From contig NC_089395.1 of NCBI RefSeq assembly GCF_003171515.1, positions 2,108,001 to 2,172,000 of the forward strand: a stretch of 64,000 bases of DNA, in the 5' to 3' direction. Made by a program: the position numbers and the translations under genes. This document shows positions 9,633-53,098 of this stretch, piece by piece; positions within the stretch are counted from its first letter, which is position 1; the number at the start of each line of letters is the position of its first letter. The notes beneath the pieces are model-generated. The model was not told the DNA's origin. It worked only from the letters and a program-made list of their open reading frames with translations, and searched no databases. The DNA is from Pyrenophora tritici-repentis. Lineage: Eukaryota > Ascomycota > Dothideomycetes > Pleosporales > Pleosporaceae.

Positions 9633-12600
9633 ATGGCGCCTGCTGCTTCGCACGATGCCAAGGACGTCAAGTCCGAAAACTCAAAGTCGCTCAAGGCGCT
9701 TGAGGAGATGATGCAGAAGTTGACCATGTCCAAGGCCCAGGACGAGATCAACGCCTCTGCTCAGGCCATCGCCACCTTCATCAATGGCGACATTGAGGAG
9801 GCTGATGCTCCCACCAAGTAAGTCTAGACTTTGCCCCTCCCCCACTACAACACAATTTCTAACAATTCGCCCAGGGCTGTCCAGGTGCTGAAGAAGCAAC
9901 TCGCCAGCAAGAAGGATGCCGTCGCCCGCGAGCGTGCGCTCGATGCCATCCGTGCCATCGCCCAGCACTCGCACGTCTCCGCCTCTGTCGAGCCCTACCT
10001 CGTTTCCCTCCTGCCGGACGTGCTGGCCGCGGTCGGTGACAAGATGAGCGGTGTCAAGGTCGCTGCCCAGACGGCGGCCGAGTCCATCGTTCAGGCTGCG
10101 AACCCCAACGCCGTCAAGGCCATTATCCCCCACATCATCCACTCGCTGGAGAACGCACAAAAGTGGCCAGAGAAGATGACCGACCTCAAGTGCATCGAGG
10201 TCCTCACCAAGAGCGCACCCGCACAGATGGCTTTCCGTGTCCCCGACCTGATTCCCGTCATCTCGGGAGCCATGTGGGATACCAAGCCTGAAGTCAAGAA
10301 GGCTGCTTACGGCACCATGGAGACTCTTTGCTCCTTGATCTCCAACAAGGATATCGAGCGCTTCATTCCCGAGCTCATCAAGTGTATCGCTAAGCCCGAG
10401 AACGTCCCCGAGACTGTTCACTTGCTCGGTGCCACCACTTTCGTCACTGACGTCCACGAGCCCACTCTTGCCATCATGGTTCCCCTGCTTGAGCGTGGTC
10501 TTGTCGAGCGCGAGACTGCCATCAAGCGTAAGTCTGCCGTCATTATCGACAACATGTGCAAGCTTGTCGAGGACCCCCAGATTGTTGCCGCTTTCTTGCC
10601 CCGTCTGATGCCGGCGCTTGAGAAGAACCACGACAACTTGGCTGACCCCGAGGCCCGTGAGAAGACCCGTCAAGGTCTCGACACCCTCATCCGTGTCGGT
10701 CACGTCGAGAACGGCAAGATCCCCGAGATTGAGAAGTCTGGTGACATTTCCACCATTGCCAACAACCTCACTGCCGTCATCCCCTCCGGAATCAAGGTTG
10801 ACGAGCGCTTCACCCCTGTCGTCAACTACATTGGCGCCATTGGTGGTCAGCTCATCGACGAGAAGGACTACGAGCCTCTCAACTGGCAGGCCAATGCCGG
10901 CCCCTTTGTCGCCGTCCTTGTTGGCGACGAGAAGGCCAAGGATGTCACTGAAGAACTCCGCAGGAGGTCCCTCCCCGGTGCCGCTGCCGAGCGCCTCGTC
11001 GAGCCCGATGAGGAGGAGGGCGAGGATCTCTGCAACTGCACATTCAACTTGGCCTACGGTGCTAAGATCCTGCTCAACCAGACTCACCTTCGGCTGAAGC
11101 GTGGTCAGCGTTACGGTCTTCTCGGACCCAACGGTTCCGGAAAAACCACTCTCATGCGTGCCATCAACAACGAGCAAGTCGAGGGTTTCCCCAAGCAGAA
11201 CGAGGTCAAGACCGTCTACGTCGAGCACGACTTGGACTCTGCTGACACTGAGATGACCGTTCTTGGCTGGACCATGAACAAGCTCAAGGCTGTCGGTATC
11301 GACAAGCCCGAGGAGGAGGTCAAGACCACCCTCAACGAGTTCGGTTTCTCCGACGCCATGTACAACGGTGGCATTGGTGCGCTCTCTGGTGGATGGAAGA
11401 TGAAGCTCGCGCTTGCTCGTGCCGTTTTCGAGCAGCCCGATATTCTCCTGCTCGACGAGCCTACCAACCACTTGGACGTGAAGAACGTCAAGTGGCTCGA
11501 GGACTACCTCACCAGCTCTCCTTGCACATCCATTGTCATTTCCCACGACAGCAAGTTCTTGAACAACGTCATCCAGCACGTCATCCACTATGAGCGCTTC
11601 AAGCTCAAGCGTTACCGTGGTAACCTTGACGACTTCGTCAAGCGTGTGCCCGCCGCCAAGTCTTACCACGAGTTGGCTGCCTCCGACATGGAGTTCAAGT
11701 TCCCTGAACCCGGTTTCCTTGAGGGTGTCAAGACCAAGGCCAAGGCTATCCTCCGTGCCACCAACATGAGCTTCCAGTACGAGGGTACCTCCAAGCCCCA
11801 GATTGAGGACATTACCTTCCAGTGCTCGCTTGGATCCCGTATTGCCGTCATTGGCCCCAACGGTGCCGGAAAGTCTACTCTCGTTAACGTCTTGACTGGT
11901 GAGCTTGTCCCTACCAAGGGTGAAATTTACCACCACGAGAACATCCGTATTGCTTACATTAAGCAACACGCTTTCGCCCATATCGACCACCACCTTGACA
12001 AGACTCCTTCCGAGTACATTCAATGGCGTTTCCAGACTGGTGAGGACCGTGAGACCATGGACCGTGCCAACAAGATCGTCACCGAGGAGGACGAGAAGGC
12101 CATGGACAAGATCTACAAGATTGAGGGTACCGAGCGTCGAGTCATTGGTATCAACTCTCGTAGGAAGTTCAAGAACTCTTACGAGTACGAGTGTTCGTTC
12201 GCTCTCGGTGAGAACGTCGGCATGAAGAACGAGCGCTGGACACCCATGATGTCTGCTGACAACGCCTGGATTCCTCGTTCCGAGATCATGGCCTCCCACG
12301 CCAAGATGGTTGCTGAGGTTGACCAAAAGGAGGCTCTTGCCAGCGGTCAGTTCCGTCCTCTTGTCCGTAAGGAGATTGAGGCCCACTGCGCCAACTTCGG
12401 TCTCGACGCCGAACTTGTTTCTCACTCACGTATGCGTGGTCTCTCTGGTGGACAGCGTGTCAAGGTCGTTCTGTCTGCCTGCTCATGGCAGCGTCCTCAC
12501 TTGATCGTTCTCGACGAGCCTACTAACTACCTGGACCGTGATTCTCTTGGCGCTCTCTCCAAGGCCATCAAGACCTTTGAGGGTGGTGTCATTATCATCA

Positions 12601-13103
12601 CTCACTCTGCTGAGTTTACCGCCAACCTTACTGAGGAAGTCTGGGCCGTCATGGACGGTCGCATGACTCCTTCTGGTCACAACTGGGTGCAAGGTCAGGG
12701 TGCCGGACCCCGTCTTGCCAAGGATGATGGTGAAGAAGAAGAAAAGGTATGTCCCCCTCACTCTACATTAATGCAAGCACGTACTGACCTCACTGCAGTT
12801 CGACGCCATGGGTTCGCATTCCCCGTTTTCTAGGCTTTCCTGTTCATTTTACACCATTCCCGACCATCCCTGGTCACCCCCAAACCTCCACGGACCCAGA
12901 AATCCATTCTGAGGCACCACCTTTTCCCGACCCTTTCTCAGCCACACTGTACGCGTAAACATGCTAACAAACTGATAGGTAACAAGATTGCTAGCCAGAA
13001 GAAGAAGGCCAAGCTCACCTCATCCGAGATGCGCAAGAAGAAGAAGGACCGCATGGCCCGCCGCAAGCGTGGTGAGGAGGTCTTCTCCGACGAGGACGAG
13101 TAA
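9633..13103 (+). CDS. TEF3: Translation elongation factor 3 (EF-3, ABC-F ATPase)
   Basis: Four exons: 9633-9817, 9875-12746, 12799-12811 and 12979-13103, giving 1064 aa with agreeing phases. EF-3 is the fungal ribosome-bound ATPase that helps release deacylated tRNA from the E site during elongation. The N-terminal about 320 residues are HEAT repeats, followed by a four-helix region. ABC domain 1 has Walker [10 protein letters not shown] near residue 479, signature [10 protein letters not shown] near 565 and Walker [13 protein letters not shown] near 585. ABC domain 2 has GPNGAGKST near 722, an inserted chromodomain-like segment, LSGGQRVKV near 918 and [12 protein letters not shown] near 939. 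The tail is Lys/Arg-rich and ends in an acidic stretch, as in other EF-3 proteins. The third exon is only 13 nt. The third intron (167 bp) has a GCTAAC branch site. Codon use is strongly biased to C-ending codons, as in highly expressed genes. Confidence 0.97.
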
Positions 13104-18299: not shown

Positions 18300-18470
18300 G
18301 TAGTACATAATGTTAATATTAGGTAGAAAGAACTTTCGTCTCGTACTATGAACTTGCTAGTGACTTGAAAACCCCCTTACACCTTCCTGATCCTCGCTTA
18401 CTTCCTATCTATAATCCCAAAAGCAAAAAATAAAGCCTCAAAAGCAAAAAGAAAAGGCAAAAATATATAT

Positions 18471-18619
18471 TGACACGAGTGGGGTTCGAACCTGATACCG
18501 CCGTTAGCATAGTTTCCACAGGATAGAGGTTGCAGAAGATACATACCCACGCACATTACTGTAGTAGAGATCTAAGCAAAGCTTAAATCTACCGCCTTAG
18601 ACCACTCGGCCATCGTGTC
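18471..18619 (-). tRNA. tRNA-Leu (UAA) with two introns, one mRNA-like
   Basis: The acceptor stem GACACGA (18619-18613) pairs with TCGTGTC (18478-18472), with A at the discriminator position (18471). The D stem is GCC/GGC. The anticodon stem GTAGA/TCTAC encloses TTTAAG..C, so the anticodon is UAA. A canonical 12-nt intron follows position 37 (about 18570-18581) and contains GCTTA, which can pair with the anticodon region. The long variable arm is 13 nt with an ACA/TGT stem, as in class II tRNA-Leu. The T arm is interrupted by 55 bp (18492-18546). Without it the T stem is GTGGG/CCCAC around TTCGAAC. The mature length would be 82 nt. Runs of five T on the transcribed strand at 18463-18459 and 18450-18446 are Pol III terminators. 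The A box (TGGCCGAGTGG) and B box (GGTTCGAACC) are both present. It could also be a gene inactivated by the insertion. Confidence 0.85.
18492..18546 (-). other. Spliceosomal-type intron inside the tRNA-Leu T arm
   Basis: Read on the minus strand this 55-nt segment begins GTATGT, has TGCTAAC with its branch A 12 nt from the end, and ends TATCAG. The same donor and branch forms are used by protein-coding introns in this window (GTATGT in EF-3, ATP9 and the beta-propeller gene; CTAAC in SRP68 and the GATA gene). Its length is also typical. Its exact removal joins GTGG to GTTCGAACCCCAC and rebuilds a perfect T arm. Splicing is inferred, not shown. Confidence 0.75.
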
Positions 18620-47520: not shown

Positions 47521-49173
47521 TTACTCTATATTAATAGTATCAGTCTTGCATGTGCGCGAGTTGTGCCCAGTCTCCTTGCACCTAGTGCAGCGCCTTTGAG
47601 CCCGCTGGCTGAGGCCTGATCGCGCTCCTCCTTGACGCTCTTCATGAGCAATCTGCTGGTCAGCCTCATTTTGAGCCAGTATATCCTCTCCAGCTCCCTT
47701 TGTGAGTACTCCATGCTTCTGTATACGCCTTTTAGAGCGCCGCCTACGCTCTGAGGCTGCGCTATTGGCCTTCTCAAGACTAGAGATCCGATCGCGCATC
47801 AGCTCAGCAGAGAGCATCATCACCTCGGCGCCCTTCTTTAGCTGGTCAATCGCCATAATAATTGAAGCTGGTGATGAGCTCTTGTGCTGGCGCACGCGCT
47901 CACGTATTAGGCTTGACTGAGCCTCAAGCTCACGCGCGTTGCTCGGCGTTTGAGCTACCCAGGGAGCCTCTGGCAGAGCTGCTGGAGGAGTAGGTGTACG
48001 CAGTTGTACATCTACCTTTGATAGAACAGCCTCTGGTTGTAGAGGAACAAGGCCTGCGCCGCGGAAGGCTGAGCAGATATTGGCTGGCGTGAACGCTTGA
48101 TCAAATGCTGCCTTGAACGCTGGCAGAAACTCTAGCTTGGTGATGTGGTTGATGTGGTTGCGCATAAGGCTCTCCACCTCACGGCTGTACGCGCGCTTCA
48201 ATGGCGAGAAGCAGCCAACATCAAGTGGCTGGAGTAGGTGAGATGAGTGAGGAGGCATACAGAGCGTATGGATATTGTTCTCCTTGCAGAGCTCCTGGAA
48301 CTCTAGAGATTGGTGGCTCTTATGGCCATCAATAATAAGCAGGCGACGCGCGCCTACACTACGAGCCTGCGTGTGAGCGTTGAAGTGCTTTAGCCACTCA
48401 ACTCCAAGCTCATTATTCGTCCAGCCATTATCGCTGACTGCGATCGCCCAGTCGCGTGGGATCTCAGCTTCCTTATACCAGGCTGATAGGTGGTACTGGC
48501 CAGCGAAGATGAGGAACGGTGGGACTGACCAGCCAGCAGCGCTGATAGCAGCGATCAGCGTTACCCACTCGCGATTGCCTGGCTGAATACTCTTCGGCCT
48601 GCCTCTCCTCTCTGCTCCTGTTATAACTAGCTGCGTTGTAATCTTGCCCATCATAAAGCCAGCTTCATCAAAGTTGTAGACGTCCTCATCGCAGATACCT
48701 AGCTCAGCCTTTGTCTCTTCTACAAGCTTAAACCACCTCTTTATTAATGTTGCATCCTCACAAAGAGCTCTCTGCCTATCGTACGCTTGGTTGAAACACG
48801 TCCGAAGACTGTCTGTACGCTTAACAAAGGTAGATGGCCAGTTGACTCCAACCTGCTCTCCACCACGCGCAGCCAGCAGCTTATCAGCCATATCACGTAC
48901 AGCTGTGTAGGTAGGCGCAAATCCACGCAGATCTAGCTGAAGTATATAGCTAATAATCACCTCCTCTTCTCTCTGGGTAAGCTTCCTTGAGTTGGGCGGG
49001 CAATCGCGTCGGGCAGGTATACCAGCGCGTCGGCGGCGGAGCGTTGTTTCGGCTACGTTGTAGACTACTGCAGCAGTACGGGTACCTTGGATCTGGTGCG
49101 CATTAATAGATGAGATAGCAAGCTGAATATCTGCTTCATTTGATAGTAATTGAGTAGCGCTGCGTTGAGCCAT
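47521..49173 (-). CDS. pogo/Fot1-type DDE transposase
   Basis: Single exon, 550 aa, with an ATG start. The N-terminal about 150 residues have the helix-turn-helix DNA-binding region of the pogo/CENP-B type ([18 protein letters not shown], then the second domain with WPSTFVKR). The catalytic core has its acidic residues in [21 protein letters not shown] and [14 protein letters not shown]. The C-terminal part has a short coiled coil ([20 protein letters not shown]) and ends with a zinc knuckle, [14 protein letters not shown] (C-x2-C-x4-H-x4-C). No stop or frameshift is seen, so it may be active. It is a close relative of the transposase at 51446-53098, though clearly diverged from it. Confidence 0.93.
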
Positions 49174-51354: not shown

Positions 51355-51419
51355 ACGTACCTCACGGGCGAGTGGGCCACACGGGCGAGTGGGCCACTCC
51401 GCTAAGACCCCACCAAAAC
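51355..51419 (+). repeat. Left terminal inverted repeat of copy B
   Basis: Begins ACGTACCTCACGGGCGAGTG. It matches the right end apart from a few substitutions and a one-base length difference. Confidence 0.88.
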
Positions 51420-51445
51420 ATACTGTTACCTACAGTACTTTCACA

Positions 51446-53098
51446 ATGAGCCAACAACAAAACAATCTACCAGCTTTAAAAGAGGCTCGATTACAGCTTG
51501 CTCTCAAGGCTATCGAACGCGACGCGACGCTGTCGCAGAGACGCGCTGCAGCTATCTACAACGTATCTCGAGTAACTCTTGGGCGCCGACGCGCTGGAAT
51601 ACCTCTTCGGAGCGATTGTACGCCTAACTCAATGAACCTCCTTAAGACAGAGGAGGATGTAATTGTCCAGCATATCCTTGACCTCGACGCGCGAGGATTT
51701 CCGCCCCGACTTGCTGCTGTGCAGGATATGGCTAATTCTTTGTTGGCTGAGCGCCACCGCGACCCTGTTGGTCAGAACTGGGCTGCAACCTTCGTCAAAC
51801 GTCGCCCTGAGCTTAAGGTCAAATTCAATCGCAAGTATGACTACAAGCGAGCCCTCTGTGAGGATCCTGAGGTTATACAAGGCTGGTTCCGACTTGTGGA
51901 GAACACAAAGGCCAAGTACGGTATCCTTGATGAGGACACCCACAACTTTGACGAGTCTGGCTTCATGATGGGCATGATATCAACTGGAGCAGTAGTCACA
52001 GGCTCTGAGCGTCGAGGACGACCAAAGAGCGTTCAGCAGGGCAATCGCGAGTGGGCTACAGTGATCCAGGGTATCAACGCGACTGGGTGGGCAATCCCAC
52101 CTTTTATCATCTTCAAAGGCAAGAACCACCTCTCTGCCTGGTACAAGGAAGATAACCTACCTCGCGACTGGGTTATTGCAGTCTCTGAGAACGGCTGGAC
52201 AACAAACAAGCTTGGTCTAGAGTGGTTAAAGCACTTTGACGCTCACACAAAGAAGAGGACTGTAGGAAACTATCGTCTGCTTATTATCGACGGCCACGAG
52301 AGCCACGACTCGCTCGATTTCCAGCAGTACTGCAAGGATCACAACATTATTACTCTCTGCATGCCTCCTCACTCGTCGCACCTACTACAGCCTCTTGATG
52401 TGGGGTGTTTCTCGCCTTTGAAGACAGCGTATGGCCGCCAAGCCGAGGATCTAATGCGCAACAAGATCACCCATATCACTAAACTAGAGTTCCTACCGTG
52501 CTTTAAAGGCGCTTTTGACGCTGCGATTACAAAGGCCAATATACAAGGAAGCTTTCGAGGCGCTGGCTTAGTCCCATTTAATCCAGAGGCTGTGATATCG
52601 ACGCTTGACGTGCGGCTGCGCACTCCACTGCTACCTACCGTCGAGGACGGTCCCTGGCAGTCGCAAACTCCAAGCAATACCCTAGAACTTGGGTCGCAAT
52701 CAAAGCTGATTCAAGAGAGGATTCGAAGACATGTAGATAGCTCACCTACGTATATGGTTGAGGCGATCAAAAGCCTGTCAAAAGGTGCAGAGATGATAGC
52801 GCATTCTCTGGTGTTAATGACCAAGCGCAACGCTGAGCTCCAAGCCGCCAACGAGGCCTCAAGTAAGCGTAGATCATATAAAAGGAAGCGCTTACAGCAG
52901 CAAGGGACCTTAACAATTGATGAGGGCGTGCGACTGACGACTCTTAAGGAGTTTGGGGCATGTAGTGATAGGAAGAAGGCGAAGAAGAGAGTGCGCGTTG
53001 AGGCAGGCGAGCCTAGCCAACGACGCTGTGGACGCTGCGGCGAGGCAGGACATAATATGCGCACATGTAGGCAAGAAGCAGCGATAGATTCTGAGTAG
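51446..53098 (+). CDS. pogo/Fot1-type DDE transposase
   Basis: Single exon, 550 aa from the ATG at 51446 (MSQQQNN...). The same frame is open from 51389 upstream, but that part overlaps the inverted repeat. It has the same layout as the copy A protein: helix-turn-helix (AAIYNVSRVTLGRRRAGIP), a second DNA-binding part (NWAATFVKRRPEL), catalytic acids in HNFDESGFMMG, LLIIDGHESH and [14 protein letters not shown], then a basic coiled region and a C-terminal zinc knuckle CGRCGEAGHNMRTC. There are no stops or frameshifts. Confidence 0.93.
   Translation: MSQQQNNLPALKEARLQLALKAIERDATLSQRRAAAIYNVSRVTLGRRRAGIPLRSDCTPNSMNLLKTEEDVIVQHILDLDARGFPPRLAAVQDMANSLLAERHRDPVGQNWAATFVKRRPELKVKFNRKYDYKRALCEDPEVIQGWFRLVENTKAKYGILDEDTHNFDESGFMMGMISTGAVVTGSERRGRPKSVQQGNREWATVIQGINATGWAIPPFIIFKGKNHLSAWYKEDNLPRDWVIAVSENGWTTNKLGLEWLKHFDAHTKKRTVGNYRLLIIDGHESHDSLDFQQYCKDHNIITLCMPPHSSHLLQPLDVGCFSPLKTAYGRQAEDLMRNKITHITKLEFLPCFKGAFDAAITKANIQGSFRGAGLVPFNPEAVISTLDVRLRTPLLPTVEDGPWQSQTPSNTLELGSQSKLIQERIRRHVDSSPTYMVEAIKSLSKGAEMIAHSLVLMTKRNAELQAANEASSKRRSYKRKRLQQQGTLTIDEGVRLTTLKEFGACSDRKKAKKRVRVEAGEPSQRRCGRCGEAGHNMRTCRQEAAIDSE

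Follow-up and report, generated by a model that had tools for sequence, protein, structure and literature searches.

The window (the whole 64-kb stretch of DNA that we analyzed) comes from Pyrenophora tritici-repentis, a Dothideomycete of the order Pleosporales, and carries on its minus strand a nuclear tRNA-Leu(UAA) gene with two introns (18471..18619), identified with Rfam RF00005 (31.9 bits) and a cloverleaf check. Read along the minus strand, the gene has an A box region in the D arm (TGGCCGAGTGG..., 18602..18612), with an exact 19-mer in common with tRNA-Leu(UAG), the anticodon TAA (UAA, 18583..18585), and a canonical 12-nt intron at position 37/38 (CTTTGCTTAGAT, 18570..18581) that holds a TTA complementary to the anticodon. 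The second intron, of the mRNA type, is 55 nt long and interrupts the T arm between positions 52 and 53 (18492..18546, placed by sequence and cloverleaf check). It begins with the 5′ splice site GTATGT (18541..18546), contains the branch-site sequence TGCTAAC (18503..18509), whose branch A lies 12 nt before the 3′ end, and closes with the 3′ splice site CAG (18492..18494). The 3′ exon (18471..18491) supplies the last T-stem base, the T loop, the 3′ T stem, the 3′ acceptor strand, and the discriminator. Because the 55-nt insert ends in G before GTTCGAACCC, the B box GGTTCGAACCC (18482..18492, cloverleaf check) is kept intact. A run of five T, resembling a Pol III terminator, starts 8 nt past the gene (18459..18463, minus strand).

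Removing both introns leaves 82 nt with 7/7 pairs in the acceptor, 5/5 in the anticodon stem, and 5/5 in the T stem; the T arm after exact removal of the 55-nt insert reads GTGGG-TTCGAAC-CCCAC. The boundary of this insert is ambiguous by one G and is settled by the GT-AG rule. The original prediction had described a T arm broken by 55 bp (GTATGT...TGCTAAC...CAG) whose exact removal gives a perfect T arm and a length of 82 nt. Our analysis arrives at the same coordinates (18546-18492, minus strand), and the cloverleaf check agrees on the product when the 12-nt 37/38 intron is removed as well.

On the opposite strand, a gene for an MFS transporter (538 aa), which is 100% identical to a protein of Pyrenophora tritici-repentis Pt-1C-BFP, ends 171 nt from the tRNA gene. 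Elsewhere in the window, two reading frames with DDE_1 transposase domains (47521-49173, minus strand, and 51389-53098, plus strand) are probably pogo/Tc-type elements.

The Rfam RF00005 match spans exactly 18619-18471 with 61 nt skipped in the T loop (E 0.0095, gathering score 29). ARAGORN with default settings reported zero tRNAs in the 64-kb window, and when introns of up to 200 nt were allowed, it called the Leu(UAA) gene a “tRNA-Stop” and misplaced the 55-nt intron into the anticodon loop.

T-arm inserts in thirteen tRNA genes

We performed pattern searches of the 40.9-Mb genome (41 contigs) and found 13 nuclear tRNA genes with GT-AG inserts of 50-65 nt in the T arm. This number is a lower bound, with patterns aimed at the D and T arms. 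The interruption affects the single genes found for Leu-UAA and Arg-CCG, the single full-length Leu-UAG gene, all four Arg-ACG genes found, two of the four Leu-AAG genes, three of the six Gly-GCC genes, and one of the five Lys-CUU genes; these copy counts rest on pattern searches and a 41-contig assembly. All 13 inserts lie outside the canonical 37/38 position and occupy four sites: 52/53 in Leu-UAA, Lys-CUU, and Arg-CCG; 54/55 in Leu-UAG and, twice, in Leu-AAG; 55/56 in the four Arg-ACG genes; and 57/58 in the three Gly-GCC genes. Each of the 13 also has a canonical 37/38 intron. Removing the insert restores a perfect 5-pair T stem in every case, and a run of at least four T begins no more than 36 nt downstream of each gene. 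One interrupted Arg-ACG gene and one interrupted Gly-GCC gene adjoin on contig 4.

The inserts share the signals of mRNA introns. In filamentous ascomycetes, the spliceosomal consensus is GTRNGY at the 5′ end and a branch sequence CTNAY shortly before the 3′ end. The 5′ ends of all 13 inserts read GTA[ACT]G[TC], in agreement with GTRNGY; all 13 contain CTNAY, its A lying 10-18 nt from the intron end; and all 13 end in AG, preceded by C or T in 12 and by A in one Gly gene (L236, AAG). When intervals of 50-65 nt were counted on both window strands, 15 of 2,048,000 (7e-6 each) showed the combination of GTANGY, CTNAY with A 10-18 nt from the end, and AG; the stricter GTATGT...TGCTAAC...CAG within 45-90 nt occurred once in the window, as the tRNA-Leu(UAA) insert itself. 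For comparison, we used two proposed coding introns of the eEF3 gene on the plus strand: GTAAGT..TTTCTAAC..CAG (9818..9874) and GTATGT..TACTGAC..CAG (12747..12798). Their lengths of 57 and 52 nt compare with the 50-65 nt of the T-arm inserts, in a comparison set of two. The joined eEF3 protein matches solved elongation factor 3A over residues 14-1025, a match spanning both intron junctions, with the alignment as printed ending ahead of the second. An ab initio scan for coding introns gave 18 candidates vs 8 in the reversed window, too few for use. The original prediction had claimed a resemblance of the insert to coding introns of the window, and the two eEF3 introns show the same kind of signals.

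Several kinds of pattern contributed to the set. The tRNA-Leu(UAG) gene, with GTAAGT...TACTAAT...CAG in its T arm, was found by a D-arm pattern; the Lys(CUU) and Arg(CCG) inserts by a pattern for AG beside a B box; and the Leu(AAG), Arg(ACG), and Gly(GCC) genes by further exon patterns together with small fetched stretches. A covariance model that permits T-arm inserts (R2) was applied to individual loci. The AG-beside-B-box pattern matched 81 places, of which 73 carry CAGGTTCGATTCC and 70 of those were examined; the other eight are the window gene, two further tRNA genes (L216 and L217), three places that are not tRNA genes (L215, L218, and L219), and two mitochondrial places. L218 and L219 resemble 18S rRNA. 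The 73 occurrences of CAGGTTCGATTCC are spread over many contigs, often as pairs ~5.5 kb apart on the same strand, and one common repeat flank was present in all 70 examined; from sequence, this is as expected for a long-terminal-repeat retroelement. One match to the pattern for site 54/55 (L226) was rejected as a chance match. Pattern scans for fungal relatives gave zero matches in prokaryote genome contigs and zero in viral contigs, save for one unspecific scan of the latter (120 stretches).

We also performed an Rfam family search, which gave 63 matches from 1172 first-look candidates; it is no census, having missed two of the four intact Lys-CUU genes. Nineteen of these 63 tRNA matches tie at 46.1 bits and 84 nt (contigs C1, C2, C3, C5, C6, and C8). 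The seven that were fetched (L047, L048, and L050-L054) differ very little from one another, and ARAGORN calls them Arg(UCU); the set represents a large gene family or else a repeat derived from a tRNA.

Mature sequences, codon use, and promoter elements

Next, we compared gene copies. In each of the four multi-copy families (19 genes), all copies found, interrupted or intact, encode one identical mature tRNA: 71 nt for Arg-ACG (n = 4), 71 nt for Gly-GCC (n = 6), 82 nt for Leu-AAG (n = 4), and 73 nt for Lys-CUU (n = 5). Global alignment of T-arm introns between paralogs gives 59-75% similarity vs shuffle means of 58-64%, and a few pairs equal or exceed the best of 200 shuffles. Arg-ACG introns reach up to 0.75 vs a shuffle maximum of 0.73, and one Gly pair reaches 0.71 vs 0.71; some paralog introns, being slightly above shuffles, may therefore have a common origin. 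Identical exons with diverged introns are as predicted by selection on the joined exons. Gene conversion could help keep the exons identical, but it should homogenize the introns too.

It is conceivable that the interrupted genes are dead tRNA pseudogenes and that intact genes elsewhere supply the cell. Intact paralogs with exact empty sites do occur among the Lys-CUU (four of five), Leu-AAG (two of four), and Gly-GCC (three of six) genes, and according to a review (PMC4090602), most insertions in the D or T arm of tRNA genes in eukaryotes are regarded as pseudogene marks. However, the mark of a pseudogene, a decayed or relaxed mature sequence, is absent from the four multi-copy families, interrupted copies included; splice signals in 13 of 13 inserts are not expected from random insertion; and all four Arg-ACG genes and the one Leu-UAA gene that were found are interrupted, yet their codons are used. 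We therefore regard this explanation as very unlikely.

Statements on missing intact copies apply to the patterns given here. No intact Arg-ACG gene was found with a D-arm pattern allowing up to three mismatches, for which all 12 places were examined: six are tRNA genes (Arg-CCG, four Arg-ACG, and Thr-CGU) and six are not. One of the latter, L242, scores 12 bits and by eye is no tRNA. No uninterrupted Leu-UAA gene was found by a whole-tRNA DNA search of the genome, by three D-arm patterns, or by a T-arm pattern allowing up to three mismatches, which an intact copy would match with one; the search for other Leu(UAA) genes that had been proposed as a check thus came back empty by all three means. 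One of the Leu D-arm patterns matched 24 places, eight of them tRNA-Leu genes or a truncated copy and 16 not. Reading UUA requires a UAA anticodon, and CGU and CGC require ACG. In five reading frames of the window (3820 codons), UUA occurs 25 times and CGU plus CGC 117 times; CUA and CGN codons are also in use in the window reading frames, and in eEF3, 42 of 47 Arg codons are CGU or CGC. Judged by codon use, the Leu-UAA and Arg-ACG tRNAs are needed.

Other observations were made on the tRNA genes. A truncated 5′ half of tRNA-Leu(UAG) without a T arm (L033, G000:C1:1869341-1869360, minus strand) lies ~10 kb from the full gene, and a decayed 5′ piece of tRNA-Gly(UCC) (L005:1835-1930) has an intact copy a few hundred bases away. 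The Leu D-arm patterns found no tRNA-Leu(CAA) in the whole genome; this gene may carry an interruption in its D arm or a D loop of unusual form. The 3′ trailers of the four Leu(AAG) genes (L209, L210, L221, and L222) look alike, with GC..TTCGTC..CAG..CCCAGG preceding the T run, an unusual feature, it seems, for tRNA trailers.

The Leu-AAG genes L209 and L221 have the same canonical intron and nearly identical 3′ trailers and differ by the T-arm intron; the intron has therefore been gained or lost precisely. Such a presence/absence pair would be consistent with a mobile, introner-like family whose members arrived recently in tRNA genes, and the original prediction had offered a mobile intron as one of its readings. 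As a near-identical introner-like family, this reading fared badly: a DNA search of the genome with the window insert alone as query matched it at its own place only, with no near-identical copies elsewhere, and the similarity of paralog introns is at or little above chance. No target duplication was seen beyond the one ambiguous G at site 52/53. Recent arrival of a mobile family thus appears highly improbable.

Inserts at sites 55/56 and 57/58 split the B box, an element of the internal Pol III promoter. Six of the seven introns at these two sites contain TTCGA, at intron positions 23-31, as compared with none of the six at 52/53 or 54/55; by chance, TTCGA arises in 3-7% of shuffles per intron (0.03-0.07). 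The exception is the Gly intron of L236, the same one that ends in AAG, which splits the B box and is without TTCGA. The three inserts at 54/55 leave a partial B box, CAGTCGA, and have no TTCGA. The simplest reading of this pattern is that TTCGA in the B-box-splitting introns is probably a substitute B box, although the statistics would be weaker if some of these introns had a common origin. The Pol III features present are an A box, a B box or an intron TTCGA, and a T run, with a partial B box in the three 54/55 genes and no TTCGA in L236.

Possible routes of T-arm intron removal

We are confident, short of certainty, that the 55-nt insert represents a U2-type GT-AG intron of the spliceosomal kind, that the tRNA-Leu(UAA) gene whose T arm it interrupts is functional and transcribed by Pol III, and that it is one of at least 13 such introns in this genome. 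The sequence evidence indicates that the spliceosome very probably removes the T-arm introns from Pol III precursors. In the proposed pathway, Pol III would transcribe each gene from the A box and B box and stop at the T run; in most B-box-splitting introns, the TTCGA that they bring would probably stand in for the B box, a statistical pattern from which we infer the function. GTANGY, CTNAY, and AG, which are present in the genes, would then be recognized in a precursor whose T arm is broken, and the spliceosome would remove the intron. The tRNA body would fold only after T-arm splicing, whereupon RNase P and tRNase Z would trim the ends and the tRNA endonuclease would remove the 37/38 intron. 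This order would fit the genes in which the T-arm intron alone is missing while the 37/38 intron and the trailer are kept. The spliceosome reading of the original prediction is strongly supported at the sequence level by the 13 genes, by Arg-ACG and Leu-UAA without an intact copy, by the identical exons, and by TTCGA in the introns.

A GT-AG intron normally marks a Pol II transcript. The tRNAs could thus lie within longer Pol II transcripts to which the introns belong, with the tRNA either incidental or cut from the spliced transcript; besides the GT-AG intron itself, the nearby end of the MFS gene could be cited for this. However, the MFS gene is on the other strand, a T run follows each of the 13 genes, TTCGA is found only in introns that split the B box, and removal of the intron restores the T arm in 13 of the 13 genes found, in a sample biased by search patterns directed at the D and T arms. 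A Pol II host transcript is, in our judgment, a very remote prospect.

Another enzyme that might act here is the tRNA splicing endonuclease, which could remove the T-arm introns through a bulge-helix-bulge, as in the red alga Cyanidioschyzon merolae. The tRNA-Ile(UAU) of that alga, as described in part of PMC9602550, is like our genes in being a nuclear tRNA with a T-arm intron in addition to one in the anticodon loop. Unlike our 13, which carry spliceosomal signals, its introns have the bulge-helix-bulge (same part of PMC9602550). In cryptophyte nucleomorphs, very short T-arm insertions are also removed: non-canonical introns in the D and T arms of Guillardia theta nucleomorph tRNAs are described, with excision by RT-PCR, in a section of PMC4090602. 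They resemble ours in their T-arm location, but they are 3-24 nt long vs 50-65 nt here, and that section gives their mechanism as unknown and makes no mention of spliceosomal signals (PMC4090602). The same section describes a ruler by which the tRNA endonuclease measures from the tRNA body (PMC4090602), and T-arm introns do not fit it. We searched all 13 genes for a 3-nt bulge, a 4-bp helix, and a 3-nt bulge at both junctions. Two Leu-AAG inserts reach 4/4 central pairs, but with 0/3 in one flank, and in all 13 genes the best structure is equaled or beaten by 28-96% of 2000 shuffled introns. Such a structure, which had been named from the outset as evidence that would speak against the spliceosome, was clearly better than shuffles in none of the 13, and it leaves GT-AG and the branch sequence unexplained in every one. 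We consider removal by the endonuclease extremely unlikely. Group I or group II introns can be dismissed, since 50-65 nt is far too short for either.

Spliceosomal removal from a Pol III transcript has a precedent in U6 snRNA. The fission-yeast U6 intron holds a B box, and other fungi also have U6 introns. In the portion of PMC10484740 that treats it, the fission-yeast U6 gene has an mRNA-type intron that is spliced out of a Pol III transcript. Our genes are similar in having, by sequence, an mRNA-type intron in a probable Pol III gene, and differ in that the hosts are tRNAs, with at least 13 genes, seven isoacceptors, and four T-arm positions. The U6 intron is attributed in that same portion to reverse splicing near the catalytic bases of U6 (PMC10484740), an explanation that does not apply to tRNAs. 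We performed a literature search of open-licence PMC papers and, among the matches listed, found no report of spliceosomal introns in nuclear tRNAs. As far as we have seen, then, U6 already provides an example of a spliceosomal intron in a Pol III gene, and what is new is the essential tRNA hosts, the several T-arm sites, and the probable substitute B boxes.

The introns of nuclear tRNAs and those of mRNAs are taught as two distinct systems, each with its own enzymes. We think it likely that the spliceosome serves as an obligatory enzyme of tRNA maturation in this fungus, and perhaps throughout its order; that the Arg-ACG, Leu-UAA, Leu-UAG, and Arg-CCG tRNAs are made only from T-arm-interrupted Pol III precursors; that B-box-splitting introns supply a substitute B box; and that tRNA finders miss or misread such genes, leaving annotated sets incomplete. 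Zymoseptoria tritici is another Dothideomycete. A codon-usage study with tRNAscan-SE reports, in the part that concerns us, 11 codons without isodecoder tRNAs in that species (PMC5315462); as a guess, T-arm introns may be the cause there as well. In tRNAscan-SE 2.0, the relevant section describes non-canonical introns as modeled for archaea, by bulge-helix-bulge models (PMC8450103), and genes with T-arm introns may therefore be overlooked. Gene sets from standard programs may thus lack real tRNA genes. If the spliceosomal reading is true, Pol III transcripts besides U6 would routinely enter the spliceosome, and the same tRNA encoded with and without an intron would offer natural gene pairs for testing intron cost or regulation. 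Translation in this organism would then depend on the spliceosome through its tRNA supply.
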